From IMG/VR virus record IMGVR_UViG_3300026519_000028, positions 1-37,949 of that record: a DNA stretch of 37,949 bases, one strand, 5' to 3'. The notes beneath the pieces were generated by a model. That model was not told where the DNA came from. It did no database searches and worked only from the letters and a program-made list of their open reading frames with translations. The stretch comes from a virus. The translations under genes and the position numbers were made by a program. Shown piece after piece: positions 6,851-34,900 of this stretch. Positions within the stretch are counted from its first letter, which is position 1; every line of letters starts with the position of its first letter.

Positions 6851-7358
6851 TGGCGTCCCCGGTCACCGGCAAAACAAACTCACACATCCGCAGGTAATCA
6901 CCGGGATCTGCGGTCTGGTCAAAGTGATATCCGCAGGTTTCCCAAATTCGTTGCACGAATGTCGAGCACACCAGTCCGCCAGATAACCTGCGCCTGAAAA
7001 TCTGGGCCAACCAAACAGAAAGCAAGGAAACATAAGAATACCGGTGATTCCGGTAGCTCAACGCGGCCGCGATGATGCCGTCACCATCCTCGACCACCGC
7101 TCTGGGCGCGGCACCATAATAGACGGAGCCGGAAGCCAGCGAATCATCCACCCATAGTGATGCTGGCCGCAGCCGATAGCCGTGGAACTCTTTCATTTCG
7201 GCCACGAACAGATGCTCATCGAACCACAACAGAACGGCGACGTGACTGATACTCTGCCCGGTCAGTGCGCGGATGAGCGCACTGACCCATCCGCGCCCTT
7301 CAACCAGGAGTACATCACCGTCACACGCCGTGGCGCGGAGTTCCTGATAACTCAGCAT
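6843..7358 (-). CDS. Permuted papain-like (YiiX/NlpC-type) cysteine peptidase
   Basis: 171 residues from the ATG at 7358, which follows the stop of the upstream lipoprotein gene by 4 bases. ISHVAVLLWF (His39), FVAEM (Glu54) and GLVCSTFVQRIWE (Cys131) occur in the circularly permuted order of the NlpC/P60 superfamily, His before Cys. Family members cut peptide or amide bonds in the cell wall or in lipids. Its place beside the amidase makes a role in lysis or in handling peptidoglycan likely. No signal peptide is seen with this start. Confidence 0.8.
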   Translation of the reverse strand: MLSYQELRATACDGDVLLVEGRGWVSALIRALTGQSISHVAVLLWFDEHLFVAEMKEFHGYRLRPASLWVDDSLASGSVYYGAAPRAVVEDGDGIIAAALSYRNHRYSYVSLLSVWLAQIFRRRLSGGLVCSTFVQRIWETCGYHFDQTADPGDYLRMCEFVLPVTGDANG

Positions 7359-9828: not shown

Positions 9829-10082
9829 GCGCGACCCTCCTCTGCAAAATTGTTTGCGGCGTTGTCTGACGCAATTTCCCTTAACCACCCCACAGCTCTC
9901 CTGACGGCAAGCAATTCTGTCGACGCGGTAATCGGCAACACCAAATCGCCAGCGCAAGCCCGAAAGACGGGCTCCATGTCTTCGATATCCATGCGCGCGG
10001 TAACGCCAACGTCAAGCAGAAAACGCGCACGTTCACGCCTCGACTCGAGGCGCTCGAACTGTTCAATCAGATGCTCTCTCAT
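9825..10082 (-). CDS. Small helical protein next to Mor, unknown function
   Basis: 85 residues from the ATG at 10082, with AGGAGA about nine bases before it inside the 3' end of the mor gene. The N-terminus is strongly helical and charged (MREHLIEQFERLESRRERAR). Two cysteine- or proline-containing turns follow. It overlaps mor by 20 bases and the next gene by 4, so translation is probably coupled. No family recognised. Confidence 0.6.
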   Translation of the reverse strand: MREHLIEQFERLESRRERARFLLDVGVTARMDIEDMEPVFRACAGDLVLPITASTELLAVRRAVGWLREIASDNAANNFAEEGRA

Positions 10083-10494
10083 CAAATAAATCTCCTGTTG
10101 TGTTTGCCGCATCGGCGTCGATATCAGCCGTCAAATTGAACACGTGGCGGCGGGTCAGGTTGTATTCCCGTGCGATCTGCGACACGGTCTGTTGCTGTCT
10201 CGCGTTGCGGATGGCGTGATTGCGGATCTGCAATATGAACTTGTCCTTCTTCGGCAGTTCCAGGCACTTACCGCCAAAGGCCTCGGCCAGAGCAGCAAGC
10301 GCGCTCTGGCTCAACACCTCACGCAACACCTGGCATCGCTCAGGCCGCATAGGGATGCGCACCCGGTTGCCGCCCCTGGCGTCTATCAGACGCAGCGTCT
10401 CTGGCAGCCCGATCACGCGCGCGATCATCCTGATCTGTGGCGGTAGCAGTGACTCGTCGATCAGCTCGAGGTCGATATCGCGCACCTCATTCAT
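10063..10494 (-). CDS. mor: Mor-type transcription activator
   Basis: 143 residues of the Mor/C activator family. The N-terminal half (ESLLPPQIRMIARVIGLPETLRLI) is the dimerisation part. The C-terminal half (NARQQQTVSQIAREYNLTRRHVFNLT) is a helix-turn-helix of the family's usual shape. In Mu, Mor made from the early transcript turns on the middle promoter, which then yields the late activator C. Only one such activator was found here, so it may serve both steps. It overlaps the gemA stop and has GAAGG before its start. Confidence 0.9.
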   Translation of the reverse strand: MNEVRDIDLELIDESLLPPQIRMIARVIGLPETLRLIDARGGNRVRIPMRPERCQVLREVLSQSALAALAEAFGGKCLELPKKDKFILQIRNHAIRNARQQQTVSQIAREYNLTRRHVFNLTADIDADAANTTGDLFDERASD

Positions 10495-10936
10495 CGATCT
10501 TCACCTTCTCGCGCCGCGCCCAGTCCTTCAACGCTTCGATGCAATCGTTGAGTTTGCGTGATGTCGCCCAGTCGAGGCGCGCAACGCCCGTCAGTCGCGC
10601 ACACCACTTCGTCATGGCGGCCTCGCCTGGCTGGCGCACCACACCGGCGTCGGCCAGCACATTCCACAACCGGGTGATCTTCGCAATGCGCGGCTTGCGC
10701 CAGTCAGCGATGCGGCTGACGGCTGTGCGCTTTGGTCTGAAGCCAAGGCGCACCATTTCATCCACGACATGCGAAAGTGTTGGCAGCGGCAGCGTCGTGG
10801 CGGATATTCGCCCCTCGACATCGGTCGCGCCGTGACGGGCGAGGAGCTGCCGGTACGCGTCATCGCTCATGCACAGCTCGCGTTTCCCAACAGCCAGTAA
10901 CTGGTAATAACGGGTACGGCGCTTGTCGGCAGGCAT
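10487..10936 (-). CDS. gemA: GemA/gp16 family regulator (DUF1018)
   Basis: 149 residues with the family pattern KRRTRYYQLLAVGKRELCMSDDAYRQLLARHGATD at the start, and a later LTGVARLDWATSRKLNDCIEALKDW. Mu GemA modulates host gene expression and DNA gyrase-related functions. The gene sits just before mor, the same relative order as in Mu, and overlaps its start by 8 bases. The exact molecular activity is not evident. Confidence 0.88.
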   Translation of the reverse strand: MPADKRRTRYYQLLAVGKRELCMSDDAYRQLLARHGATDVEGRISATTLPLPTLSHVVDEMVRLGFRPKRTAVSRIADWRKPRIAKITRLWNVLADAGVVRQPGEAAMTKWCARLTGVARLDWATSRKLNDCIEALKDWARREKVKIDE

Positions 10937-10949
10937 CGTGACGGCTCCG

Positions 10950-11111
10950 TTACTGCGCGGCAGGGATCAGCCGGATCTCGACGACTTCATGGATGTCGAA
11001 GCCGTTGGTTCCATGACAGTGATTGTTGATCAGCACGGACCAGTCAAATTCGGAAAAGGTCTGCGCCTTCAACACCCCACCCTGCAGATAGATCACTTCG
11101 AATTTTTTCAT
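10950..11111 (-). CDS. Small 53-residue early protein, unknown function
   Basis: This reading frame starts at the ATG at 11111 with GGAGG six bases upstream, a very good ribosome site. It ends with TAA at 10950-10952, 13 bases before gemA. The protein begins MKKFEVIYLQGGVL and ends IHEVVEIRLIPAAQ; it looks like a small alpha/beta protein and has a single cysteine. No family recognised. It fills an otherwise empty gap between gemA and the dyad cluster. Confidence 0.75.
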   Translation of the reverse strand: MKKFEVIYLQGGVLKAQTFSEFDWSVLINNHCHGTNGFDIHEVVEIRLIPAAQ

Positions 11112-11300
11112 GCTGCGCCTCCGTGGCATATGTCAGTGATGAAATTTCCCGGCGCCGCATAGGGGCGGCGCCGGGAAAGGTGGCCCGTCTCGTGGGCCGG
11201 TCGGCCGCGTCACCCAGGTGGGAGGTAAGTCTCCCAGGCCGCTGCTGCCGGTGTTTGCGCCACCGCCGGCTGGGCGCCTCCATTGCGGAGGACGGATGTA
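11112..11300. other. Non-coding stretch with a cluster of strong dyads
   Basis: No gene with a convincing start is seen here between gam and the 53-aa gene. A perfect 14-bp stem pairs 11145-11158 (TTTCCCGGCGCCGC) with 11165-11178, loop ATAGGG. A second short hairpin is CCTCC...GGAGG (11279-11292 area), and further dyads with GGCC and GGGAG motifs lie between. No T-run follows on the minus strand. It could fold as a structured leader or attenuator within the leftward early transcript, or mark the early/middle boundary. Confidence 0.6.
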
Positions 11301-11843
11301 CTATGCCGCCCGGGCCTTCTTGACCGGCTCCGCGCGCTCGATCTGGCTTTCGAACGGCTTGGCCACGAATTCCTCCTTCTGGGAGATCGTGATGCCCTTC
11401 ACGCCCTCGATGCGTTCCGGGTCGTTCAGAATCGCCTCCTTGTTGACTTCTTCCTTGGTGCGCACCAGATCGCCAAGGCCGAGGCTTTTGAGGTTCCTGA
11501 TGACCGTCTCCGCGCCGGTTACCCTCACGGAGGGCGGAGACGTGCGCCAGGACAACTCTCCGGATGACAGTTTGGCCGTCTTGCTCTTGCCCTTGAGCAG
11601 GTCGTGCTTGTTGGCCTCAGCCCAGGCATGCAGCGCCTGAAACTTGGTGGTGATCACATCATTGAGCGGACTGGCCTCCTTCTCGAACCGGTCCTTGATG
11701 TCGGCCAGCCGCTCGTTCATGCGTGTTTCAATCACGGTCACCTTGCGCTGCAGGGTGCCGATCTCGGCCAGTAGCTGCTCGGCCTCTGTCTGGTTGGTGG
11801 GCGCCTCGATGGCGGCGGCCTTGATGCGCGTGGGTTTCCTCAT
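11301..11843 (-). CDS. gam: Host-nuclease inhibitor Gam
   Basis: 180 residues of the Mu Gam family, a Ku-like protein that binds DNA ends and shields them from RecBCD and other exonucleases. The long N-terminal coiled coil (ELLAEIGTLQRKVTVIETRMN-like run, residues about 20-60) and the ELSWRTSPPSVRV stretch are hallmarks. The C-terminal half (KEAILNDPERIEGVKGITISQ) is also typical. An AGGAGAAAGG ribosome site precedes the ATG. It lies in the early block, as in Mu. Confidence 0.93.
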   Translation of the reverse strand: MRKPTRIKAAAIEAPTNQTEAEQLLAEIGTLQRKVTVIETRMNERLADIKDRFEKEASPLNDVITTKFQALHAWAEANKHDLLKGKSKTAKLSSGELSWRTSPPSVRVTGAETVIRNLKSLGLGDLVRTKEEVNKEAILNDPERIEGVKGITISQKEEFVAKPFESQIERAEPVKKARAA

Positions 11844-22672: not shown

Positions 22673-23129
22673 CCGTGATCAACTCATCGAGTTGCGAGAC
22701 GACATCCTGGCCAATCCGCGCGGCCTGCCTATAGCCAATGGTGATGGGCTGCTGACTGACGCCCAGATCGCTGACGTGTACAACACCGTGGGGATATCCG
22801 GGGAGTCTGTCCCGCGCACAAGTCTGTCCGGCCAGGAAATTCTTGACGCCCTGGACCCGCAGGAATTCCAGGCGTTGACCGCGGAGCAGCAGACTGCCGC
22901 GCTACAGTTGGCTGGCACCAGCCAGATTGATGTCACAAACCCGGTGATCAAGATCGCGTTTCGTCAGCTGGTGCCCGCTGGCAGTGCCAGCGAGTCAAAC
23001 GTGATGGGCCTGCTGAGTGTCAGCGTATCTCCTGCTCAAGCGAGTGGATGGGGGCGCTTGCACCATCTTGACGTCGCCAACGCTGTGGCGTTTATGACGC
23101 CCGCTCAACGCACTCTCATGGGAAGATAA
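22665..23129 (+). CDS. Structural operon protein, unknown function
   Basis: 154 residues from the ATG at 22665, with GGAG before it and an 8-base overlap with the previous gene; the upstream frame is not needed. It is helical at the start (LDRDQLIELRDDILANPRG). The middle has SGQEILDALDPQEFQALTAEQQ and the end ANAVAFMTPAQRTLMGR. Its place between capsid and neck genes suggests a head-tail connector role; no family was recognised. Confidence 0.65.
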   Translation: MLDRDQLIELRDDILANPRGLPIANGDGLLTDAQIADVYNTVGISGESVPRTSLSGQEILDALDPQEFQALTAEQQTAALQLAGTSQIDVTNPVIKIAFRQLVPAGSASESNVMGLLSVSVSPAQASGWGRLHHLDVANAVAFMTPAQRTLMGR

Positions 23130-23131
23130 TC

Positions 23132-23584
23132 ATGCCGCGCACGACGACACCTATCACAGCAGGCCTTGCATCAAACCTGACTTCGCTGGCCAATAATGCC
23201 GCCAAGGTGATCGGCGAGGTAGACCTCGATGCTGCCGGCGCTCACGAACTCGGCGTGTATGTGCAGGCCCAGCTCGCCGCGGCCGGCGTTGCAGCCGATG
23301 GCCGGGTGGAACTGTGGTGCATCTATTCGCACGACAACGTGCAGTGGACTGACGGTATCGATGTTACCAGTGTGCTGGATGTGTCGGCAGAGTTGTCAGC
23401 CGCCAGGCTGTTGGGCAGTGTTGCTGCAAACGTTAACGGCCAACGGGTGGCCGCGCATGCTGACGTGCATCCAGGGACCGGTAGTGGCTACAAATTCGCC
23501 TGCGTGATCGTGTACAACAAGTCAGGCGCTGCGTTGGACGCTACGGGGAATGATGCCAATTACGCGGCTACGGTTTACAGTTGA
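23132..23584 (+). CDS. Beta-rich structural protein, unknown function
   Basis: 150 residues predicted as beta sandwich (DAAGAHELGVYVQAQLAAAG, VELWCIYSHDNVQWTDGIDV, YKFACVIVYNKSG). It starts 3 bases after the preceding stop, and its own stop overlaps the next start. It could be a partner of the adjacent LamG/repeat protein in a surface fibre, judged from adjacency only. Confidence 0.6.
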   Translation: MPRTTTPITAGLASNLTSLANNAAKVIGEVDLDAAGAHELGVYVQAQLAAAGVAADGRVELWCIYSHDNVQWTDGIDVTSVLDVSAELSAARLLGSVAANVNGQRVAAHADVHPGTGSGYKFACVIVYNKSGAALDATGNDANYAATVYS

Positions 23585-25188
23585 TGTTATACGTCCCGCG
23601 TAAGAAGCCCTGGGAACGGCAGCCCCAACCCCAGATCGCAGTGGATCATGCGAAGTATGGCCCGTTTTTGGCATACACGCCGAATGTGGATCTGCTGGTT
23701 CGTGGCGGGGTCATAATGACGCCGCACGGCTTGGGGACAAATGCATCTGTCGGCAAGGGGGTTGTCAATTACGGTGTAACTGATACCACATCAGTAATCG
23801 TCGAGTATTACGCTATCGCGCCAGCATTGTATTCTGGACAAACCATCTTCGCGGATACAAACGCGTCATTCCCAAATGACCTGGGCATTCGCATGAAGTC
23901 CAGCAGAGGGCTGTATATCTGCTTTGCGAGCGCCCGGGACCAGGCTGGTAACGCACGATATACTGCACAACTCGATTTTTCGTCCGACGCGATGGCCGCA
24001 AACACTATGGCTGTTAAGGCCATAGCTATAGAGGCGGACGGTACTGCGAGGTTGTATGGCCGCAAAGATGGCGGTCCAGTGAAAACGCTCACAGATACGT
24101 CGCTCACGCCCTATGAATTTCCGGTGGCGAGTATTGGTGCCGGCCCGCTAATCGGTGGATACGACGCGGTTAAAGAGCCCGGCACATACGTCGTATTGGC
24201 GCTCAGATTTCCTCGTGCACTATCAGACGGCGAACTGAAGGAGATATTTGCCAATCCGTGGCGTGTATTTAAGCCGCGTACACTCTGGCAGCAGGTTGGT
24301 GTTTTAGACTCATCGTTGAGTGTTACCGATGTCAGCGCTTCCGCCAATATCGATGCGTTGGCGATTTCTCAGGCTCACGCGCTGGCAGTTGGCGGCGTCG
24401 AGTCAGCCGCCTCTGCGGGATCACTGGTGATCAGTCAGGGCCATGAACTGTCGGTCGGCGATGCTGTATCGAATTCTTCCGCTGATGCCGCGGCCATCTC
24501 GCAGGCCAGCAGTATCACCCTGACCATCGCTGACGCCAACGCCGGTGCGGTCATTGATGCGCCCGCTATTACGCAGATCCACCCGCTGATAAGTAGCGAT
24601 ATTCAGGCGCAGCCGGATACCGAAGCGCCGACGATCACTCAACGTCATGTGCTGGCGGCCGCCGAGGCAGAATCCACCGCCACCGCCGACCAACTGGCGA
24701 TGGCTCAGAATCATGCGTTGGCAGTCGCTTTCGCCGAATCATCCACTGCTACGGTTTCACCAGCAATTAGTCAGAGCCATGAGCTGTCAGTCAGCGATGC
24801 TGTATCGAATTCTTCCGCTGATGCCGTGGCCATCTCGCAGGCCAGCAGTATCACCCTGGCCATCGACGGGCTGATTTCTCCGGCTGAGTCTGGCGCGGTT
24901 TCCATTACACAGACTCATGCCCTGGTCGCCGCCGATGCTCAGGCGGCCGCCCTGCTCGACAGTGTTGCCGTCGATCTTGTAACAGTGCATGACCTGGCCA
25001 TCGACGGGTTGATATCACCGGCTGAATCCGGCGCGGCTGCTATTACACAAACTCATGCCCTGGTCGCTACCGATGCTCAGGCCGCAGCCCTGCTCGACAG
25101 CGTCGCGTTTGCCGGCCTTGGTCTGGGGGAAATCCACCATCCAAGCCTGATCAATGTCACCCCTCGTACTGAGTTAAGGAGCATTTAA
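23584..25188 (+). CDS. Surface protein: LamG-like domain plus about 11 stalk repeats
   Basis: 534 residues from the ATG at 23584. Residues 1 to about 240 form a concanavalin-like jelly roll whose end (ALSDGELKEIFANPWRVFKPR) is a frequent signature in phage LamG proteins. From about 245 onwards there are around 11 repeats of 20-25 residues, with pattern I(S/T)Q.H.L.V.DA.S.S.AD. Two repeats are nearly identical in DNA (24442-24522 and 24778-24858), and another pair is 24856-24969 and 24994-25107. It is likely a fibre or decoration on the head or neck that may bind glycans. Confidence 0.75.
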   Translation: MLYVPRKKPWERQPQPQIAVDHAKYGPFLAYTPNVDLLVRGGVIMTPHGLGTNASVGKGVVNYGVTDTTSVIVEYYAIAPALYSGQTIFADTNASFPNDLGIRMKSSRGLYICFASARDQAGNARYTAQLDFSSDAMAANTMAVKAIAIEADGTARLYGRKDGGPVKTLTDTSLTPYEFPVASIGAGPLIGGYDAVKEPGTYVVLALRFPRALSDGELKEIFANPWRVFKPRTLWQQVGVLDSSLSVTDVSASANIDALAISQAHALAVGGVESAASAGSLVISQGHELSVGDAVSNSSADAAAISQASSITLTIADANAGAVIDAPAITQIHPLISSDIQAQPDTEAPTITQRHVLAAAEAESTATADQLAMAQNHALAVAFAESSTATVSPAISQSHELSVSDAVSNSSADAVAISQASSITLAIDGLISPAESGAVSITQTHALVAADAQAAALLDSVAVDLVTVHDLAIDGLISPAESGAAAITQTHALVATDAQAAALLDSVAFAGLGLGEIHHPSLINVTPRTELRSI

Positions 25189-25593
25189 ATGAAGCTGTTT
25201 CACAACGACGTGTTCGATTTCGGCCTCGATGCCGTCAAGACAAATGGCAACAAGTTGGTGCTGTGTAAACAGCCGCCGACCACGTTTGTCGAGGCCAATA
25301 ATCTCGCCAGCGATGTGCCCGCCGGATTCAAGATCGCCGAGGTGGCGTTGGTGCCCGCTGATTTAGTCATCGCCGACAGGACCGGCGGTGGCCGTGAGAT
25401 TACCGTGGCCGCCAAGCCTGGCGTCAATGCGCTGGACAATTCACTCGCCACTGACGACCTGCACATCGCCATCCTGGATGCCACCAACAGCAAGCTGATG
25501 GTGGTCACGGACGAGACCACGGACCAGCCGGTCACTTCCGGCAACCAGGTCAATCTCCCGACGTTCAAGTTCGGCTATCCGGATCCGGTGTAA
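25189..25593 (+). CDS. Structural protein after the repeat protein, unknown
   Basis: 134 residues starting directly after the TAA of the upstream gene. It is beta-rich (NKLVLCKQPPTTFVEANNLASD, LHIAILDATNSKLMVVTDETTDQ). The same type of protein often follows LamG/fibre genes in transposable phages, where its role has not been assigned to my knowledge. It could cap or anchor the neighbouring fibre. Confidence 0.6.
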   Translation: MKLFHNDVFDFGLDAVKTNGNKLVLCKQPPTTFVEANNLASDVPAGFKIAEVALVPADLVIADRTGGGREITVAAKPGVNALDNSLATDDLHIAILDATNSKLMVVTDETTDQPVTSGNQVNLPTFKFGYPDPV

Positions 25594-25596
25594 TCG

Positions 25597-25929
25597 ATGA
25601 TCCGTACCGCCCTGATCCATAAAGACCGAGACAACGCCAGCGACTTTGTGTTGGCGGTTGATGGTGTGCCGCTGGCCGACGCCAGCGCCATCACGCGCAT
25701 GGTGCTGACGCTGGGCAGTGTGACGGTCGACTCCGATACGGACAACGGCATCGACTGGTCCGGCATGACGGTGTACCACGGACGCCCGGCGGCATTGCTG
25801 CGACTCAAGCTGGGCAGCGTCTCGGGCCTGAATGTGGGCGATGAGCTGGAAGGCGACCTGGTGGTCTATGACCCTGACAATCCCGCCGGTGTGGTCTGGG
25901 TGCGCGGGTACCCGTTCAGGGTGGTATGA
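25597..25929 (+). CDS. Small beta-rich structural protein, unknown
   Basis: 110 residues with alternating strands (FVLAVDGVPLADASAITRMV, LGSVTVDSDTDNG, GDELEGDLVVYDPDNPAG, VVWVRGYPFRVV). The stop overlaps the start of the gp36-like gene as ATGA. No family was recognised; it is probably part of the head-tail junction or a fibre. Confidence 0.6.
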   Translation: MIRTALIHKDRDNASDFVLAVDGVPLADASAITRMVLTLGSVTVDSDTDNGIDWSGMTVYHGRPAALLRLKLGSVSGLNVGDELEGDLVVYDPDNPAGVVWVRGYPFRVV

Positions 25930-26339
25930 CGATGAGCTACTGCACGAAACAGAATCTGATCGCGCGGTTCGGCAAGCCCGAACTCGAACAGCTGACCGAC
26001 CGCGATCTTACCGGCTATATCGACGATGTGGTGCTCGACCAGGTCATCGTCGACGTGGGCGCCATGATCGATGCCTACATCGGTAGCCGCTACACATTGC
26101 CGCTGAGTCTGGTGCCCGAAGTACTGGTTACCCTGGCCTGCGACATGGTGCGCTATCGCCTGTACAAGGACGGCGCGCCAGATGAGGTGAGTGACCGCAA
26201 CCGCGCCGCCATGCGCTATCTGGAGCGCATTCAGGAAGGCAAGGCCACCCTGGGTGAGCAGGAGGCCGGTGAGGATCGCAGCGGCGGTCAGGTGGCGGTT
26301 GGCGCCGGGCAGTCCCGGCATGATTGGGGCTCCTACTGA
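25926..26339 (+). CDS. Head-tail connector, Mu gp36 family (DUF1320)
   Basis: 137 residues: YCTKQNLIARFGKPELEQLTD at the start, then DVGAMIDAYIGSRYTLPLSL and LACDMVRYRLYKD, and DEVSDRNRAAMRYLERIQEGK at the end. This is the DUF1320 pattern, a helical adaptor thought to bind below the portal. A second ATG lies 6 bases in. It overlaps the next gene as TGATGA. Confidence 0.88.
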   Translation: MTMSYCTKQNLIARFGKPELEQLTDRDLTGYIDDVVLDQVIVDVGAMIDAYIGSRYTLPLSLVPEVLVTLACDMVRYRLYKDGAPDEVSDRNRAAMRYLERIQEGKATLGEQEAGEDRSGGQVAVGAGQSRHDWGSY

Positions 26340-26848
26340 TGACCGGCACCACCCTGGTCTATCGCGACAACGATGTGCTGGCCAAGCTGAATCGCCTGGC
26401 CGCCTTCGACGCGTCCGCGATGATGAATGAGATCGGCGGGATGTTGGTGGCGTCGACGACGCAGCGCTTTGTGGACGGCAAGGGGCCGGACGGCGTGCCG
26501 TGGGAACCGCTGGCGGAATCCACCCGTCTGGCGCGTATTGGCGGCAGCAAAAAGAGTCGCAAGAAAGACGGCAGTTTTCGGGCCGGGGCCTTGCGGGTGC
26601 TGGGCAACGTGAAGGTGCTGGTCGATCGCGGTCACCTTCGTGATTCCATTACCTACCAGGCCAGCGCTGACGAGGTGGCCGTGGGCACCAACAGGGTCTA
26701 CGGCGCCATCCATCAATTCGGTGGGCAAGCTGGGCGTGGGCAGACTGTGACCATTCCGGCACGGCCCTTCCTGGGTATCAGCGCAGACGATGAGCGCGAG
26801 ATCAATCTGATCGCCCAACATCACATTGCCAGCGCGATTACCGGTTGA
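26339..26848 (+). CDS. Virion morphogenesis protein, Mu gpG family
   Basis: 169 residues from the ATG at 26339, which overlaps the gp36-like stop. The family pattern is clear: TTQRFVDGKGPDGVPWEPLAESTRLA, then KVLVDRGHLRDSITYQ, VAVGTNRVYGAIHQFGG and IPARPFLGIS. These proteins join the head to the tail and were named for tail completion. In Mu, G precedes I, but here it lies after gp36, so the order is changed. Confidence 0.9.
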   Translation: MTGTTLVYRDNDVLAKLNRLAAFDASAMMNEIGGMLVASTTQRFVDGKGPDGVPWEPLAESTRLARIGGSKKSRKKDGSFRAGALRVLGNVKVLVDRGHLRDSITYQASADEVAVGTNRVYGAIHQFGGQAGRGQTVTIPARPFLGISADDEREINLIAQHHIASAITG

Positions 26849-27300
26849 TGGCGATGGATGATTTCCTGGGCCTCGAACCCCTGCTGATCCAGCGCATCGA
26901 TGACTGTGTCGGCGGCTTCCGCGGGCAGGTCTTTGGCGCCCCGGAGCTGGGCACTTTCTCGGACGCCAGGCGTTCACCGCCAGCACCGTCCTGCGACGTT
27001 GTGTATGGCGGTTATCTGCCACTGGAAGATCGCGGCGACGGCGTTACCCGCGTACGGCAGACCTGGTATGTGGTGCCCCGCGTGCGCAACGTGCGGGATG
27101 TCAAGAGCGGCCAGTCGGCGCGCGAGGAAGGCAGCGCTTTGATTGGGCAAACGCTGGCGGCACTACTGGGATGGAAGCCGAGCGACAACCACAAGGCGCT
27201 GGTGCTGGCTCCCGCGCCGCCGCCGGAATACCTGCTCGGCAAACTGGAGATGCCGCTAGCCTTTTTCACTGAAATCGTCGTTAAACCAACAGGAGACTGA
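26848..27300 (+). CDS. Tail terminator-like protein, Mu gp37 family (DUF1834)
   Basis: 150 residues from the ATG at 26848, overlapping the gpG stop by one base. It has LEPLLIQRIDDCVGGF, RVRQTWYVVPRVRNVRD and ALIGQTLAALLGWKP, the DUF1834 pattern. Family members are believed to cap the tail tube at the neck. The preceding genes are the expected connector partners. Confidence 0.85.
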   Translation: MAMDDFLGLEPLLIQRIDDCVGGFRGQVFGAPELGTFSDARRSPPAPSCDVVYGGYLPLEDRGDGVTRVRQTWYVVPRVRNVRDVKSGQSAREEGSALIGQTLAALLGWKPSDNHKALVLAPAPPPEYLLGKLEMPLAFFTEIVVKPTGD

Positions 27301-27302
27301 CA

Positions 27303-27473
27303 ATGAGCAATACAGAAACACAGCTCAAGGAGCAACCCAAGAAGCAACCTAAGAAGGTCAAGGTCGCGCTGAAGAAGGCTCACACCCATGCCGGGGTCGA
27401 CTATCAGCCAAAGGATGTCGTCGAGGTACGTGAGGACCAGCGGAAGCGACTGGTCGAACTGGGCGTCGTTTGA
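27303..27473 (+). CDS. Small basic protein, DUF7210-like
   Basis: 56 residues starting two bases after the gp37-like stop. A lysine-rich N-terminus (PKKQPKKVKVALKK) leads into AHTHAGVDYQPKDVVEVREDQ and RLVELGVV, the small fold often encoded before the tail sheath or tube gene in Mu-like phages. Similarity to the N-terminus of the gene at 22256 is noted. Function unknown. Confidence 0.7.
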   Translation: MSNTETQLKEQPKKQPKKVKVALKKAHTHAGVDYQPKDVVEVREDQRKRLVELGVV

Positions 27474-27517
27474 TCGCACGGCCATCAGCAACCGTTTAAT
27501 CACAGAGGAACGAAATC

Positions 27518-28261
27518 ATGCCAGGTACAGAACAGAGTTATATCGGTAAGGGGTCGATTTATCTTGGCCCTGCCGACGGCAGCGCCAAGGCGCGGCCCAT
27601 CGGCAATTGCGGCAAACTGGAATTGGCCATCAGCGAAGACAAAAAGGAGCTGCCAGACTATCAGAGCGCCGGTGGTGGCGTGGCCAACTCCATCTCGCGG
27701 ATTTCCGGCATCGAGGCGTCAATTACCCTGCATGACATCAGCCCGGAAAATCTGGCGCTGGCGGTGTTTGGATCCACCAGCGCAGTGACGGCGGGCACGG
27801 TAACTGACGAGTCGCACACGGCCTATTTGGGCGGCTTGGTGCGCCTGAATAACCTGCCGGACACGGCCACCATCGTGGTAACGGACAGCGCAGGCACTAC
27901 CACCTATGTGCTGGACACGGATTACACGGTCAATGGGGCGGGCATCGTGCCCCTGGATACCGGATCCATCGCCGACGGCTCCACCATCCTGGTCGATTAC
28001 ACGAAAAAGGTCGGGAACGTGGTCCAGGCGGTGGTGAACAGCGGTCAGGAGTTCGCTTTAACCTTTGTTGGTCTCAATGAAGCGCAAAGCGGAAAGCCGG
28101 TGGTGGTGGATCTGTACCGCGTCAAGTTCTCGCCCACCCAGGGGCTGGGGTTCATCGGTGATGAGTTCGCCGCAATGGACTTGACCGGCAGCGTCCTAAA
28201 GGACACCAGCAAGAGCGGTGCTGGCGTCAGCCAGTATTTCAAGGTCGAGCAGGCCGCGTAA
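27518..28261 (+). CDS. Tail tube protein
   Basis: 247 residues; EQSYIGKGSIYLGPADGS at the start and LELAISEDKKELPDYQSAGGG are features of tail tube proteins of siphovirus-like transposable phages. The middle (ATIVVTDSAGTTTYVLDTDY, IVPLDTGSIADGSTILVDYT) looks like an inserted beta domain exposed on the tube surface. GAGG precedes the ATG. The absence of a sheath gene nearby implies a non-contractile tail. Confidence 0.82.
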   Translation: MPGTEQSYIGKGSIYLGPADGSAKARPIGNCGKLELAISEDKKELPDYQSAGGGVANSISRISGIEASITLHDISPENLALAVFGSTSAVTAGTVTDESHTAYLGGLVRLNNLPDTATIVVTDSAGTTTYVLDTDYTVNGAGIVPLDTGSIADGSTILVDYTKKVGNVVQAVVNSGQEFALTFVGLNEAQSGKPVVVDLYRVKFSPTQGLGFIGDEFAAMDLTGSVLKDTSKSGAGVSQYFKVEQAA

Positions 28262-28273
28262 GTCGGGTAATTC

Positions 28274-28313
28274 AAACAGGGTCGCGCGGCGGACTGTCGC
28301 CGGCCCTGTTTTT
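28274..28313 (+). terminator. Hairpin with T-run between tail tube and tape measure
   Basis: AAACAGGG (28274-28281) pairs with CCCTGTTT (28304-28311), with an inner GGCG/CGCC stem, and a run of five T (28309-28313) follows. It is a good intrinsic terminator form. Since the tape measure gene follows 40 bases on with no visible promoter, it probably reduces rather than ends transcription, so that far more tube than tape measure is made. Confidence 0.7.
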
Positions 28314-28351
28314 GGAATAACGGTTTTCAGCAACGGTCAGGGAATTAAAGC

Positions 28352-31300
28352 ATGAGCAATTTGGTGGTCGAACTGCTGCTCAAAGCGAAGGATCTGTTGT
28401 CGGGTACCGTCAAGGGCAGTACTGCCGCGGTAGAGAAGTTCGACGCCAGTACCCGTGACGCGGTGAAGGGTGCGGACGCATTCGGCGCGGCCGGAAAAAA
28501 AGCGGGCGAGGATGCACAGCAGGGCATGTCGCTGGCCGCGCGTGAGGCCGCCGACCTGCAAACAGAACTGGCCCGTCTCAGTAGCCAGCAGCAGCTGGTC
28601 GAGAAATTCACGCGACTGAAGACCGAGGCCGCGGCAACCGCCAAACAATTAGCCGCATCAAAGGCAAGAACCGCCGAGCTGGCGGTGGCGATGAAGGCCA
28701 GCGATAAGCCTGCGCGGAAGATGGCCACGGAATTCGAGCGCGCCAGAAAGGCCAGCCGGGATCTGGCCGCGCGTCAACGCCAGCAGGCTGTGACCCTGCA
28801 GCAGTTGCGCGGTGAGCTGGCCGATACCGGCGTCAGTACAAAAAAACTCAGTGACCACAGCCGCGATCTGAAAAACAGTATCCAGTCCGCCACAGCCCGG
28901 CTCGATAAGCTGGCCGGTGAAATCGATCGCGCCGGCAAGCAAAGCAAAAAATCCGCTGGAAATGTCAAGGCGTTTGGTGATGAGACCGAAGCCGCTGGCG
29001 ACAAAACCCGGTCGCTGAATGAGTCGCTGAAAAGCGGCGTGCAGCGCGTACTGGCCTACGGCGCGGCTTTTATCGGCCTGAACAAGCTGCGCCAGGGTTT
29101 GTCGGCCATTCTCGATACCGGTGGCCGGTTTGAGCGGCTGAATGTCCAGCTACAGGCAGTGATGGGGTCAGTCGCGGAGGGTGAATCTGCGTTTGCCTGG
29201 ATCAAGCAGTTCACCAAGGATACACCGTACCAGCTCGACCAGGTCAGTGAGGCGTTCATAAAATTGAAGGCGTTTGGCCTGGACCCGATGGACGGCACCA
29301 TGCAGGCCATCGTCGATCAGTCCGCCAAGCTCGGCGGTAGTCAGGAGACGCTGAACGGCATCATCCTCGCCGTGGGTCAGGCCTGGGCAAAACAAAAGCT
29401 TCAGGGCGAGGAGATCCTGCAGCTGGTCGAGCGTGGTGTGCCGGTGTGGGATTTGCTGGCTGAGGTAACCGGCCGCAATACCGCCGAGCTGCAAAAAATG
29501 AGCGCGGCCGGAAAACTTGGGCGCGTCGAGATTGCGCTGTTGATCGACGCTATCGGTCAGTCTTCACGCGGCGCAGCGGCGGAAACCATGACCACCTGGG
29601 GTGGACTGGTATCCAACCTCAAGGACCAATGGACGGCATTCCTCGACAGTATTGCCAGCTCCGGGACATTGGATTATTTCAAGCAGCAGATCATTGAGGC
29701 CGGCGCGGCGGCGAAGCGGCTGGCGGCCGATGGCAGCCTGAAGCGATATGCGCAGAACATTTCAGACGCCATAACCACCACGGCACAGGTGATAAAGACC
29801 AGTATCGCTGTGGTGGCGAAATACAGTGATGCCCTGCTGGCGCTGGGCAAGGCATTCGCTGTCATCAAGGCCGCCCAGGCCGCCGGTGCGGTGGTTCGTT
29901 TCGGCGCGGCGATGGCGGGCAGCGTGGCCAGCGTCACCGGGTTCGGCAAGGCCACCACACAGGCAGCAGGAAAGGTTAAAACCCTGGGCGCGGCCATCAA
30001 GCGTATTCCGACCTCCATCAAGATCGGTGTCGCGCTGGTGGCCTTCGATGTAGCGGTCAAGTCGGCGCGTTTCCTTGGCGAGGCGGTCGCCAAGCTGACG
30101 CAGGACCAGGACGCCCTGCGGGAGGCTCAGGAGCGTTACAACAAGGCGGCCTATGACGGCATTATTTCCGGCCAGAATCTGGCCGCCGCTAATTATCAGT
30201 ACCGGGACACCGTGATCCAGACTGCAGAGGCAGTGGCCAGGATGACGGAAGCCGAGCGGACGTCCTATACCGAGCGCCTGCAAGGGCTGGCGGATTACGA
30301 ACGCGCGCAATTGCGCATTGCGCTGAATGAGCAGCTGCTGGGTGAGGACACGACCAAACGGCAGCAGGCGCTGGGCCAGTCCCTGCAGGCGGTGCGCGCG
30401 GGTTTCGAGGCCATCGAGCAGGGTGCGTCTATTGCGGCGGAGGCGGTGCGTACTGGCCTGTCGCCGGCGGCGCAGTTATTGGTAGCCGAGTTTGACAAGC
30501 TCGTTGGCAAGGGTGGCGAGGTCAAGTCTGTGCTGGCTACTTTGTTCAAGGATTTTGACCCCACCTCCATCGAGTCTGTGCGCACCTACGGTGAGGCGCT
30601 GCTGAAACTAGCCGATGACGGCCGGGTTACCGCGGACGTCATCACCAACCAGCTGGCCGCCTCGCTGGAAAATCTCTCCGGGCAGGATCTGATCAAGTTC
30701 CAGGTCACCGCCGAGGCGGCGTTTGGCGGTGTCAGCGAACAGGCGGGTGAACTGGCCAGCCTGCTGGATGGCTCGCTGTCAGCGGCACTGAAGCGGCTTG
30801 GCGTTGACGTAAACGAGTTGGAGACCGGGATTACCACGGCTGGCCAGGACATTCTCGACACGTTTACGGCCATCGCCGGTAATGCGCAGGCAAGCAGCAA
30901 GCAGATTGGCGCGGCGTTTGAGGCGGCTTTGCAGAAGCTGTCAACAAAAGAAGAGCTGATAGCGCTACAGGCATCCCTAAAAGCTGCATTTGATTCCGGG
31001 CGGATATCTGCCAAGGCCGCGTTGCCTGCAATGGCCGCGGTGGAAAAAAAGATGGCCGAGGTCGCTGGCAGCGCAGGAAAAGCGTCCGCCGAGTTTGATC
31101 GCCAGAAACAGGCGGTACAAGAATTGAAGGCAGAACTGGAGGGGCTAAAAAACGGCCAGGATGACGTTACTGATACGTCCGCAGATTCAGCGGCCGCCGC
31201 CAACGAGGCGGCGAGCGCGTGGTTTGCCTTTTGGAAGAATCTTCAGGCGTCGTTCTACGATATGTCGGATGCCGTTGGCGAAGCCTACGACCGTATTCTG

Positions 31301-31945
31301 GAAAAATCTGCGTTGATGAATGATTCAATGTCCAACTTCTATGCGGACCTGAGTCGGCAGACGGAGCAGCTGACCCGTGACTACGAAGCTCAGGCCGGTG
31401 CCTACGACACGATGATGGAGCGCGTGCAAAGCGGCACGCTTAGCGTTTATGAGCTAAACAATGCGGCGTTGACGGCGGCCGGCGGCTTTACCCTGCTGGG
31501 AGATAACCAGCTGGTCGATCTGCGCGCCGCCATCGATGACGCGCAGAAAAAGATCGACCGCCTGGAGGAGTCCGGGCAGCGGACGTTGGATGCTCTGCAG
31601 GACAAGCTGGACAGATTACAGGGCAACGAGGCAGCCATTCAGCAGCGGGATTATGAGCGCCAGAAGGCCGATCTCGAATCCCAGCTGCAACTGGCGCGGA
31701 AATATGGGTCGCGTGATGCTGTTGCTGATTTGCAGCGGGCCCTGCAGTTGCTGACGCAGATCAATAGCGAGGAGACCCGCCGTCGCCTGGAGCGAGACAG
31801 AAGCAGGGAGACGGCGCGGCGCCCTGACCGCGCGCCGACGGCTACCCGCGATGTGTCCATTACGGTCAATGGCGTTACTGATCCCGAGGCCGTGGCGCGC
31901 AGGATCAGGCCGTATCTGGCAAAAATCGACAGGTTGAGGGCTTGA
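28352..31945 (+). CDS. Tail tape measure protein
   Basis: 1,197 residues, the longest or second longest gene of the phage. The N-terminal quarter is coiled coil (KTEAAATAKQLAASKARTAE). Residues about 230-450 match the tape-measure N-terminal domain (GGRFERLNVQLQAVMGSVAE, FGLDPMDGTMQAIVDQSAKLGG, LNGIILAVGQAWAKQKLQGEE, GVPVWDLLAEVTG). Hydrophobic stretches near 500-570 may insert in the membrane on DNA entry, and the C-terminus is coiled coil again (EDQLRGNEAAIQQRDYERQ-like). It sets tail length; at about 0.15 nm per residue a tail of some 180 nm is expected. Confidence 0.93.
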   Translation: MSNLVVELLLKAKDLLSGTVKGSTAAVEKFDASTRDAVKGADAFGAAGKKAGEDAQQGMSLAAREAADLQTELARLSSQQQLVEKFTRLKTEAAATAKQLAASKARTAELAVAMKASDKPARKMATEFERARKASRDLAARQRQQAVTLQQLRGELADTGVSTKKLSDHSRDLKNSIQSATARLDKLAGEIDRAGKQSKKSAGNVKAFGDETEAAGDKTRSLNESLKSGVQRVLAYGAAFIGLNKLRQGLSAILDTGGRFERLNVQLQAVMGSVAEGESAFAWIKQFTKDTPYQLDQVSEAFIKLKAFGLDPMDGTMQAIVDQSAKLGGSQETLNGIILAVGQAWAKQKLQGEEILQLVERGVPVWDLLAEVTGRNTAELQKMSAAGKLGRVEIALLIDAIGQSSRGAAAETMTTWGGLVSNLKDQWTAFLDSIASSGTLDYFKQQIIEAGAAAKRLAADGSLKRYAQNISDAITTTAQVIKTSIAVVAKYSDALLALGKAFAVIKAAQAAGAVVRFGAAMAGSVASVTGFGKATTQAAGKVKTLGAAIKRIPTSIKIGVALVAFDVAVKSARFLGEAVAKLTQDQDALREAQERYNKAAYDGIISGQNLAAANYQYRDTVIQTAEAVARMTEAERTSYTERLQGLADYERAQLRIALNEQLLGEDTTKRQQALGQSLQAVRAGFEAIEQGASIAAEAVRTGLSPAAQLLVAEFDKLVGKGGEVKSVLATLFKDFDPTSIESVRTYGEALLKLADDGRVTADVITNQLAASLENLSGQDLIKFQVTAEAAFGGVSEQAGELASLLDGSLSAALKRLGVDVNELETGITTAGQDILDTFTAIAGNAQASSKQIGAAFEAALQKLSTKEELIALQASLKAAFDSGRISAKAALPAMAAVEKKMAEVAGSAGKASAEFDRQKQAVQELKAELEGLKNGQDDVTDTSADSAAAANEAASAWFAFWKNLQASFYDMSDAVGEAYDRILEKSALMNDSMSNFYADLSRQTEQLTRDYEAQAGAYDTMMERVQSGTLSVYELNNAALTAAGGFTLLGDNQLVDLRAAIDDAQKKIDRLEESGQRTLDALQDKLDRLQGNEAAIQQRDYERQKADLESQLQLARKYGSRDAVADLQRALQLLTQINSEETRRRLERDRSRETARRPDRAPTATRDVSITVNGVTDPEAVARRIRPYLAKIDRLRA

Positions 31946-31946
31946 C

Positions 31947-34900
31947 ATGACAGGTGTGCAGCGATTTTTCGCCAATAATCGTAATGCGCTGCGGGAAGCT
32001 GTTCTGACCGCCAGTGGCGTTAAGTCGTCGTCGGCTATCTTTCGCCGCGCCGTCAACCGGACTGGCAACGGGACGGTGAATGTCACGGGCAATTACACCG
32101 GTATGAATGACGCCACTTTCGAAGTGGAAATCGTGAACGATGTCAGTGCCACGCCGCGCGTTAGCGCCCCCGTTTTCTCGGGTGTTGGCAATGGCGTGCT
32201 GTCCGGGCTGTCTGTTGCGTCCGGCACGGCGCCGGAGACATTCTCGGTACGGCTGGCCGATCTTGGCTCTGATACAACACAGGCTGTGATCGATGTGGCC
32301 AATGTGGTGCTGGCAGCAAAGGCGAGTGGGGCCGCTGGTAATGCGATCCGTATCGAGGTGGATGAATCCGGCGTGACGGCCGCCGACATGCCGTTTGCGA
32401 CATTGGACGACTGGTCGACAGGACAGCCCTATAAGGTATGCGCGCAGTGGGATTTTGGCGCCCAGCCGTTGAAGGCCGACGGCTGTCTGGAAGACTCCGC
32501 GCCACGCATCATGTTCGGCGCCGATCCGCAGGTATACCGGCAGTACAAGAAGTACGAGGAGAAGCAGTGGCGTTATTATTTGACGCCGGCCCTGGTGCGT
32601 GATGTGCCGGCCGGTACGATCGTTAAGTCGGTATCTGGCGCCAGGACCGTTACGGTAACGGACGGCGTGGCCACGGATGTGCACGCCAATATTGTCACAG
32701 TGTATGACCTGTTGGCGGCTGTCCGCGAAACCAGCACGCTGCTGGATGTCGTCGGCGTGGTGACCAATGATTGCCAGCCTAACGGGGCCGGGGTAACGGA
32801 TTTGCCATTGCAAACGGTGTCATATGTGTTGCCTGTCCAGGTGTCAGGCAGCTCCTATGCAGAGCGACTGGAGGCCCTGGCGGTAAGTCCCACTGCACCG
32901 ACGGAAGTGGTCAGGGTGACGTGTACCGACAACGATCAGATGGGCTATGAGAGATGGAAGGTCGTGGGTGATGTGTCTGGCCGGTTGGCTGATGCCGTTA
33001 CGGGCCTGGATTACGATGGCGGTGCGTTGTCCTTCCGCATTCCACGGCGCCAGCTAGAGTCGACACCGCGCGCTGATGTGTCGTGGTCATCGACGTACCA
33101 GCTGCGCACCAGCGGTCAGGAACCTCCGCCTCTGTGTGTGCGCAATTTCACGCTGGGTGCAAAGTCGTCGTCGAAGTCGATCACGTTCACCTATACCAGG
33201 CGCCCATCGTCGGATTGTGGGTGTGACAAGGCGGTCCCATCTGGAAAGTTGTCCGCTACGTGTTTGGGGTTAAACAAGGAGCTTGATATGGCAACACTTG
33301 ATCCCGCCTATGCGTCGAGATTGCAAGATCTCTACGACTGGCGAGCGTCATTCATGCAGAACAATACCTATATTTTCGGTCCTCGTGTCGATGGTGAAAC
33401 ATTGGACCGGCAGTTGGTTGATTCTGTGGTCAACATATTCGGTTACTGGCTCGAACAGTTTTATGCTAACCCGACAGCCCTCGCCAGTTGGGATGCCGAA
33501 TATGCAAAGATGAAGTCTGAACTGAGTGCGCTGGTTGGCGCGAAAAATCAAACGGTGCCTGGCTGGCAAGCGTCGACGACGTATACATCAGGCTGGATCA
33601 TGCCGACCGTAGCCGCAGATAACGGGCACGTTTATTTGCTGGTTGCTGGAGGTGGCGGGAATAGCGGTGCGACAGAGCCTGCGTGGCCGACAGATGGGTC
33701 GACGGTGACAGACGGGGCGTTGACCTGGCGTGACGCCGGGCCACGTTACAGTAGTGCCATTGCCGCGTTCGATCCTGGCACATCGTACAATCAATGGGCC
33801 GCCGGTGAGATGTTGGGCGCAGGTGTTTTGAGGCAGCCCACAACAACCAACGACAATGGTCATTATTATGTAACACCTATTGATATAGATATTGCAGTTA
33901 CTACAGGGGCTACGGAACCTGCATGGCCTACGAACGGAGGTACTGTCGTCGATGGCACTGTTACCTGGAAGGACCTCGGGTTTAGGGGCAAGAAATATTC
34001 TGCCGGCGATATCGTGCAGCCTACAACGGCCAATGGCCATGCATATATGGCATTGTCCTCCGGGGCGGCAGGGAACGAGGAACCAACTTGGCCGACTGAC
34101 GGCAGCAGTGTCCAGCCTGCATTCAGCGATGTGGCGTGGCAGGATCTTGGATTTATCCGCGACATTCGGATGGCCAATCAATCTGCCATCGATCTGTCGT
34201 CGTCGTCAGACATCTCCGAGTTCGTAACCCGGTACCAGGCAAAGATGGATGCGCTTGGCATCGATGTGGGCATTGTGCCGGGAAAATCTGACGGCTCCAA
34301 CACTGGCAGCGCTGCATGTTGGAGCGACCCAGGTGGCGATTATTGGTGGACATCTCCTGGCTATTTGCCGGCGTTTACCAATCGCATCTGGCACAGCGTG
34401 AGACGTAATAGCGATGGAGACATCGAATCCACCCAGGAATTTGCTCTCGCCATTGTCTGCGCGTGCCCTGACAAGCTGATGGAGGGCGACACAATCACTG
34501 TCTCGATCGATGATGTTACTGGGGTGGCGAAAACATATCAGATCGGCGATGAGTTCAAGGTGCCCGTGGTCAATGCGTCGCCGGTATATCTTGCCGGTGG
34601 TGTCGATGGTAACGATACTCATACATGGCTGGTGACCGGAAGTGTTTCCGGAAAGTTGCCTGATTATGCGGTGGTGAATGGCGCCGAGGTTCCGTATTCA
34701 GCAGGTGGGTTGGGGTTTACCATTTACCGCAAGGGTATGCCGTTTGCGCTGGGTGACCAGTGGACTTTCGCCGTTGAGGGGGGACAGTACCGATGGCGCA
34801 AAAATGACGGAGCATGGTCTACCCCTGCCGATATTCCTGCCGCTCCTGTTGGATTGTCGGATGGGCTGTCGGCTGAATTTACGCCTGGCGCCGCCCCGAG

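Follow-up and report, generated by a model that had tools for sequence, protein, structure and literature searches.

The window, i.e. the whole stretch of viral DNA analysed here (37,949 bases), encodes on its minus strand a transposase, B, gam, gemA and mor (Table 1). The gam stop codon (11301) and the ATG (11111) of the gene for a 53-aa protein are spaced by exactly 189 nt, and the other eight neighbour distances of the ten coding sequences listed (nine successive pairs) are -50, -8, 13, -1, -4, 350, 18 and 3 nt, seven of these eight being overlaps or spacings of at most 18 nt; two small ORFs of 76 and 88 aa, absent from the list of ten, overlap with the 350-nt stretch. A preliminary description of this DNA had drawn attention to a 189-base gap in a packed operon, 5' of the 53-aa gene, gemA and mor, and these distances agree with it. 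No Pfam or PHROG match was retrieved for the 59-aa frame enclosing the 53-aa ORF. The minus strand of positions 11112-11310 folds with -99.5 kcal/mol (z -3.59), one of 200 shuffled sequences doing equally well; RNA from the plus strand of the gap was set aside, its folding not being unusual (z -0.86, with 42 of 200 shuffles as good).

Table 1. Coding sequences and RNA features around the gap 3' of gam.
Feature	Position	Strand	Evidence and remarks
gam (Mu Gam-like)	11301..11843	-	Pfam PF07352, E 4.2e-37
gemA	10487..10936	-	Pfam PF06252, E 1.1e-23
mor	10063..10494	-	Pfam PF08765, E 5.9e-10
53-aa ORF	10950..11111	-	ribosome-binding GGAGG at 11118-11122
Structured RNA element (5' hairpin, pseudoknot core, S3, S4)	11182..11291	-	model R1 match 11241-11280; stretch after gam in L003, L004 homologous
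5' hairpin CCTCC-GCAAT-GGAGG	11277..11291	-	last base shared with S1
S1 5' strand GCGCC	11273..11277	-	partner 11257-11261; covariation
S2 5' strand GCCGG	11266..11270	-	partner 11247-11251 across S1 (pseudoknot); covariation
S1 3' strand GGCGC	11257..11261	-	covariation
S2 3' strand CCGGC	11247..11251	-	A-rich loop AAACA (11252-11256) just before; covariation
S3 helix	11207..11242	-	GCG 11240-11242 pairs CGC 11207-11209; inner hairpin 11219-11236; TGA right before 3' strand
S4 hairpin GGCCC-ACGAGAC-GGGCC	11182..11198	-	loop type ACGNNAC
Perfect 14-bp hairpin	11145..11178	-	begins 3 nt 3' of S4; T-run absent

The 14-bp hairpin

The arms of the stem first noticed in the gap (11145-11158 and 11165-11178) are indeed 14 nt long and 100% complementary, with a 6-nt loop. 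Nowhere else in the window is there a perfect hairpin of at least 12 bp (loop 3-12), nor was one present in any of 20 dinucleotide shuffles; the only other perfect 11-bp hairpins with loops of this size lie at 94-119 and 7260-7287. The 3' flank of the stem reads TTTCATCA and holds no T-run, so the combination of GC-rich stem and T-run typical of an intrinsic terminator is not found at 11145-11178 and the terminator scan omits the hairpin, which lends no support to the attenuator that had been suggested for the window. At the matching position of a Mu-like relative (L003, see below) a 12-pair hairpin is followed by seven T, a canonical terminator. The 14-bp stem is a mere tail of a larger RNA structure. 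The several further dyads reported around it are real as well, but most of them belong to one RNA structure including a pseudoknot, which is invisible to a dyad search.

A conserved pseudoknot core

The search for relatives confirmed 98 Gam homologues, the best 80 of which were kept. The two loci L003 (Gam 76% identical, the closest) and L004 (64%) carry recognisably the same RNA directly 3' of gam and encode GemA further downstream (E 1.8e-20 and 3.8e-22, respectively), the element thus being placed 3' of gam and 5' of gemA; the space between the element and gemA is taken up by other small ORFs in L004, and in L003 a Mor-like protein is encoded past the terminator (24.1 bits, cut-off 24.9). 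Compared with the window, L003 shows paired changes in both helices, from GCGCC/GGCGC to GCGTC/GACGC in S1 and from GCCGG/CCGGC to GCCAG/CTGGC in S2, and, as judged by eye, a similar 5' hairpin at the corresponding place. A scan for the core and its pairing over loci L003-L084 (80 Gam and 2 GemA loci) was positive solely for L003, L004 and L005; L006 and L007 (Gam 60 and 59% identical) contained no element, and neither did shuffled loci. In L005 the element is found 1.9 kb 3' of gam, past gemA and a helix-turn-helix ORF in the place of mor.

The core can be written as (S1)CA GCNGG CGGU(S1') loop AAACA CCN'GC, and it is an H-type pseudoknot because S1 and S2 cross. In the pattern used for searching, N, N' and the inner bases of S1 were unconstrained. 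The variable pair N/N' of S2 is complementary in all 68 unique matches preceded by CAGC (41 GC, 23 CG, 2 AT and 2 TA), against only 9 of the 42 matches without AGC there, which are non-members. Pairs 2, 3 and 4 of S1 are formed in 59, 57 and 47 of 59 non-redundant members, a set including the window itself and L005, the shuffled means being 33.0, 26.8 and 26.0. These are anchored counts, used because a MAFFT alignment of the window, L003 and L004 put the core of L004 in the wrong place. When a larger, unfiltered set was considered, N paired in 87/87 and S1 in 84/87 viral matches, and in 69/102 and 63/102 host-genome matches, chance ones included. In the set pre-filtered for pairing the proportion of paired cells is 98.4%, with a covariation score of 0.406 (0.091 shuffled, at most 0.051 when slid); this result is partly circular, since an exact pattern and a filter for S1/S2 pairing had decided which rows entered. 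Of the 107 eligible rows 57 were used in A6, and the rows of model R1 had passed the same pattern choice and pairing filter. An early pairing of CCCAG with CTGGG, proposed from three sequences, was dropped after 59 sequences fixed S1 and S2. Compensatory changes across relatives, the very evidence proposed beforehand as a check of an RNA element, are thus present, and it is near certain that the gap encodes a real, conserved, pseudoknotted RNA.

Downstream helices and exchangeable 3' hairpins

The S3 helix begins at a conserved GCAGC. Its helix score averages 9.73 over 141 members and 8.49 when the downstream parts are swapped, and scores of at least 9 are obtained in 66% versus 42% of cases; for the S3 region of the window RNAfold by itself favours a GGCC/GGCC pairing instead. 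Two motifs recur in the 133 regions inspected, namely GGTGA (40, with 8.6 expected) and CCTCC, CTCCT or TCTCC (73, with 37.0 expected).

Further 3', a hairpin with the loop NCGNNAN is present in 35 of 133 members and in 4.2 of their shuffles, the stem control being a plain letter shuffle. The loop ACGNNAC stays fixed while the arms change together (GGCCC/GGGCC, GACCC/GGGTC, AACCC/GGGTT, CACCC/GGGTG and GCCCC/GGGGC). Eight of the 133 members carry instead a GAAAGA-loop hairpin with a covarying stem of its own (0.05 in shuffles), so the hairpin at the 3' end looks exchangeable, in the manner of a module. One further ACGNNAC hairpin, of 4 bp, lies near position 2968 of the window.

The hairpin GGCCCACGNNACGGGCCAC was also seen without a core detected by R1, at L110, L111, L118, L122, L127, L128, L129 and L141 among others, in several cases directly 3' of a stop codon (by eye). 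R1 found a core at E values up to 1 in 10 of 64 S4-bearing loci, these being the ones submitted out of 73 (L094, L095, L097, L102, L104, L107, L108, L112 and L132 were omitted); since R1 misses the true member L092, lack of a core among these loci means merely that R1 detects none. Variant cores were recognised by eye at L088, L100, L101, L114 and L119. At L111, L118, L128 and L156 the hairpin GGCCCACGNNACGGGCCAC stands 3' of long GC-rich repeats of short units, apparently at the end of a repetitive ORF, and about 0.7 kb 3' of the 3' hairpin of L107 a type II hammerhead ribozyme (L107:4865-4932, plus strand) scores above the Rfam threshold.

Distribution of the element

A pattern for the 3' part, drawn from the window, L003 and L004, retrieved 23 stretches from viral_contigs, about two thirds of which also have the upstream part (by eye). 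The core pattern matched at least 119 stretches of the same collection and 109 stretches of bacterial genomes, some of the latter by chance; about 64 of the 80 bacterial matches listed belong, judging by their titles, to Pseudomonadota. Model R1, built from 57 members with no Mu-like sequence among them, finds the window (46.3 bits, E 4.9e-9) and the Mu-like loci L005 (1.3e-11), L003 (1.1e-6) and L004 (2.8e-5), together with Cronobacter phage JK004 (9.5e-8) and the Pseudomonas phages Solano (8.7e-6) and phiAH14a (0.0024, a weak match). Weaker hits at L017 (0.0085), L009 (0.034), L084 (0.31) and L027 (0.9) are not claimed as members. Judged from these matches, the element occurs in Mu-like, lambda-like and other phages and in bacterial genomes.

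BLAST of the gap of the window against phages gave a single short match, to Cronobacter phage JK004, where the element (L085:1450-1500) is located 3' of a tRNA-like 3' half in which ARAGORN finds no tRNA gene. The same search with L107 gave no match and with L175 just short matches to streptococcal phages. The form present in P. aeruginosa phages (BLAST with L165) also occurs on the plasmid records NZ_CP137513.1, NZ_CP137518.1 and CP092847.1, possibly phage-plasmids. Among 185 genomes of the class of Stenotrophomonas G020 searched at E 1e-5 with stricter filters, the centre genome alone was positive, with two matches, and the element therefore looks rare in whole genomes; six of eight genomes taken from the bacterial core-pattern loci gave a match at E 0.01.

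Relationship to Proteo-phage-1

At curated thresholds Rfam identified no family in the window. Under relaxed conditions Proteo-phage-1 (RF03044) was placed on the core with 14.5 bits (E 3.1), below the gathering threshold of 42 bits, which is passed by L092 (49.3) and L235 (65.3) and closely approached by L004 (41.8). Both the window (with no mismatch) and L235 match the core pattern exactly in S1, CAGCNGGCGGTG and AACACCNGCAGC; in L235 this exact core is followed by an S4 of type II, and in L092 a variant core by an S4 of type I. The window thus shares an exact core while scoring below the cut-off of the family, and as far as sequence comparison can tell its RNA is very likely a relative of Proteo-phage-1, a divergent one. 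Only 1 of 20 loci with pattern-defined cores reaches the RF03044 threshold, the other 19 remaining below. The second hairpin of the Rfam model corresponds to S1, whereas the printed structure of its 82 positions contains neither S2 nor S3 nor S4; where the model has its 5' hairpin the window has a short one, in a region that the Rfam alignment covers poorly. Proteo-phage-1 RNA is reported to stem from a survey of 2017 that listed candidate structured RNAs. A literature search by name found no paper on Proteo-phage-1 or RF03044, and a broader one no title on this RNA among the matches listed. The core is therefore already represented in Rfam by Proteo-phage-1, and what is new is the full architecture, the interchangeable 3' hairpins and the Mu-like branch.

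Genomic setting

In Detrevirus PAJU2 the element belongs to the cI-side operon, ahead of the annealing protein and exonuclease; in Solano it has a terminator on either side, and further on are genes for lysis and terminase; and in phiAH14a it lies between NinG-side and terminase-side genes and is overlapped by an annotated ORF of the opposite strand. The proteins encoded next to viral members, 138 downstream and 144 upstream, were compared through the 25 commonest families of each side among the matches listed. Those upstream include helicases, exonucleases, DNA polymerases and repressors; terminases are on the downstream list alone, exonucleases on both, as are endolysins (3 downstream, 2 upstream), and among these 25 families per side no one neighbour gene dominates.

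Strand, stop-codon and same-strand-gap counts rely on mechanical ORF calls. Coding on the same strand predominates upstream in 56 and downstream in 48 of 66 members, and by these crude calls downstream coding is mainly on the opposite strand in 18. Cores begin at most 20 nt from an upstream stop codon in 41 of 133 cases, against 6.9% of random positions, a proximity due in part to the element filling gaps. A terminator-like hairpin occurs within 120 nt 3' of the element in 26 of 133 members (3.9 in shuffles), and terminator-like sites were counted in 15/122 downstream and 7/122 upstream regions and in 2.4% of random windows. When other same-strand gaps serve as the reference there is no enrichment (4/56 versus 18/195; Fisher p 0.79), L003 and Solano being picked examples outside the 4/56 count.

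At L175, L234, L160 and L249 a terminator-like hairpin comes 3' of the element, together with TATATATAGGGAGA, by eye similar to a T7-type phage promoter. One contig stretch (L188:2259-2335, minus strand) harbours a CyVA-1 RNA (RF02965, 44.2 bits) besides an element.

Possible function

The preliminary description had proposed that the dyads form an RNA attenuator or a protein-binding site controlling the step from early to middle expression. A DNA-binding protein site is disfavoured because the arms covary while the loops stay fixed, and attenuation as a rule for the whole class is weakened by the lack of enrichment of terminator-like sites over other same-strand gaps. As for the early-to-middle step, it would suit the window, L003 and L004, where the element separates gam from gemA, but not L005, where it lies beyond gemA, nor other phages, where it is placed elsewhere.

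The mechanism that we favour, albeit tentatively, is control by the nascent RNA of transcription read-through toward gemA-mor; next in our ranking comes a trans-acting RNA, followed by an element of mRNA processing or translation. In Mu biology mor has to be made from the early promoter, and no sigma-70-like promoter was found between gam and gemA in L003. Once the early transcript extends past gam, the knot and S4 would fold as nascent RNA and may bind a conserved host component, for which the elongating RNA polymerase is the simplest candidate, possibly joined by a factor on S4; the bound RNA would then decide the passage of the next hairpin into gemA-mor, a full terminator in L003 that would be weakened in the window. 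No single neighbour family stands out in the lists shown, which makes a component shared by the hosts the probable partner. For the Mu-like branch, controlled read-through is a sensible guess. The promoter scan of the minus strand between 9300 and 17500 is weak evidence in this regard because it listed no promoter anywhere over these 8.2 kb.

Such a mode of working could be likened to that of EAR or put RNA. The EAR RNA of Bacillus eps operons is a pseudoknotted RNA of about 120 nt within a long operon that acts in antitermination; it resembles the element by description and belongs to other hosts. The boxB hairpin of lambda nut combines a short stem with a GNNA-like loop, a feature shared with the element, the likeness being that of the hairpin alone. 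The put RNA of phage HK022 acts in cis on RNA polymerase from within early transcripts and comprises two stem-loops in about 70 nt, with putL immediately behind PL and putR some 270 nt downstream of the start of PR (PMC9378689). Both would be phage RNAs inside early transcripts, but the element has a pseudoknot core in mid-operon, and this architecture differs from the two stem-loops of about 70 nt described for put (PMC9378689). In positions 23000-33000 of HK022, four motif searches retrieved two half-matches standing alone but not a single complete core, and R1 gave no match at E values up to 1.

That cleavage or termination releases the element from the operon transcript as an sRNA or ribonucleoprotein RNA of the phage, acting in trans on the host or its defences, is possible though rather doubtful. 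The related family is typed in Rfam as 'Gene; sRNA', the neighbours vary, and the 18 of 66 members with downstream genes mainly on the other strand fit such an RNA better than read-through control; the terminator-like hairpins behind some members, Solano included, point the same way, and the T7-promoter-like sequences noted by eye in four contigs would place the element at the end of a transcript. However, the 41 of 133 cores that start next to a stop codon leave little space for a promoter of their own, no sigma-70-like promoter was found near the elements of L003 (3300-3900, between gam and gemA) or Solano, and so long a sequence conserved across host classes would be unusual for an RNA pairing with host mRNAs.

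An inter-cistronic spacer acting in cis, on which the processing or stability of the mRNA or the translation of the following gene would depend, is in our view unlikely. CTCC, reminiscent of the 16S anti-Shine-Dalgarno, abounds in the loops of S3, in agreement with the excess of CTCC-type motifs given above, and at many loci the element fits closely between stop and start codons (by eye). In the window, however, the predicted fold has CCTCC base-paired within S3, and conservation does not extend to the following gene: when the 53-aa protein was compared by tblastn with the post-gam stretches of L003, L004 and L005, the best E was 1.1. Small H-type pseudoknots are common among metabolite-sensing riboswitches, and the element has invariant loops and an A-rich third loop, in rows chosen by pattern; a riboswitch is nevertheless improbable, no shared downstream metabolic gene appearing among the 25 commonest families shown. 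That the gap holds no more than an intrinsic terminator or dyads clustered by chance is very improbable, since the strong GC-rich hairpin and the terminator at the matching place in L003 are set against the missing T-run in the window, the R1 match and the conservation and covariation of the remainder, which contradict a plain terminator as a full account.

Returning to nascent control of transcription, a broader and distinctly speculative proposal, which we hold to be unlikely as a whole, is that of a modular RNA class of Mu-like, lambda-like and other phages in which the pseudoknot core would touch a conserved host machine and the exchangeable ACGNNAC or GAAAGA hairpins would be read by a phage-specific factor, both jointly steering early-to-later transcription, with the ACGNNAC hairpin also working alone in other phages. 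Should RNA polymerase be the target of the element, an RNA-based way of controlling transcription would be added for phages outside the lambda group. An unexplained gap has become a testable RNA, and the Proteo-phage-1 class, whose Rfam model passes over relatives, gains a fuller structure backed by covariation. In the window the element adjoins mor, a known switch gene, where an effect on transcription is measurable.
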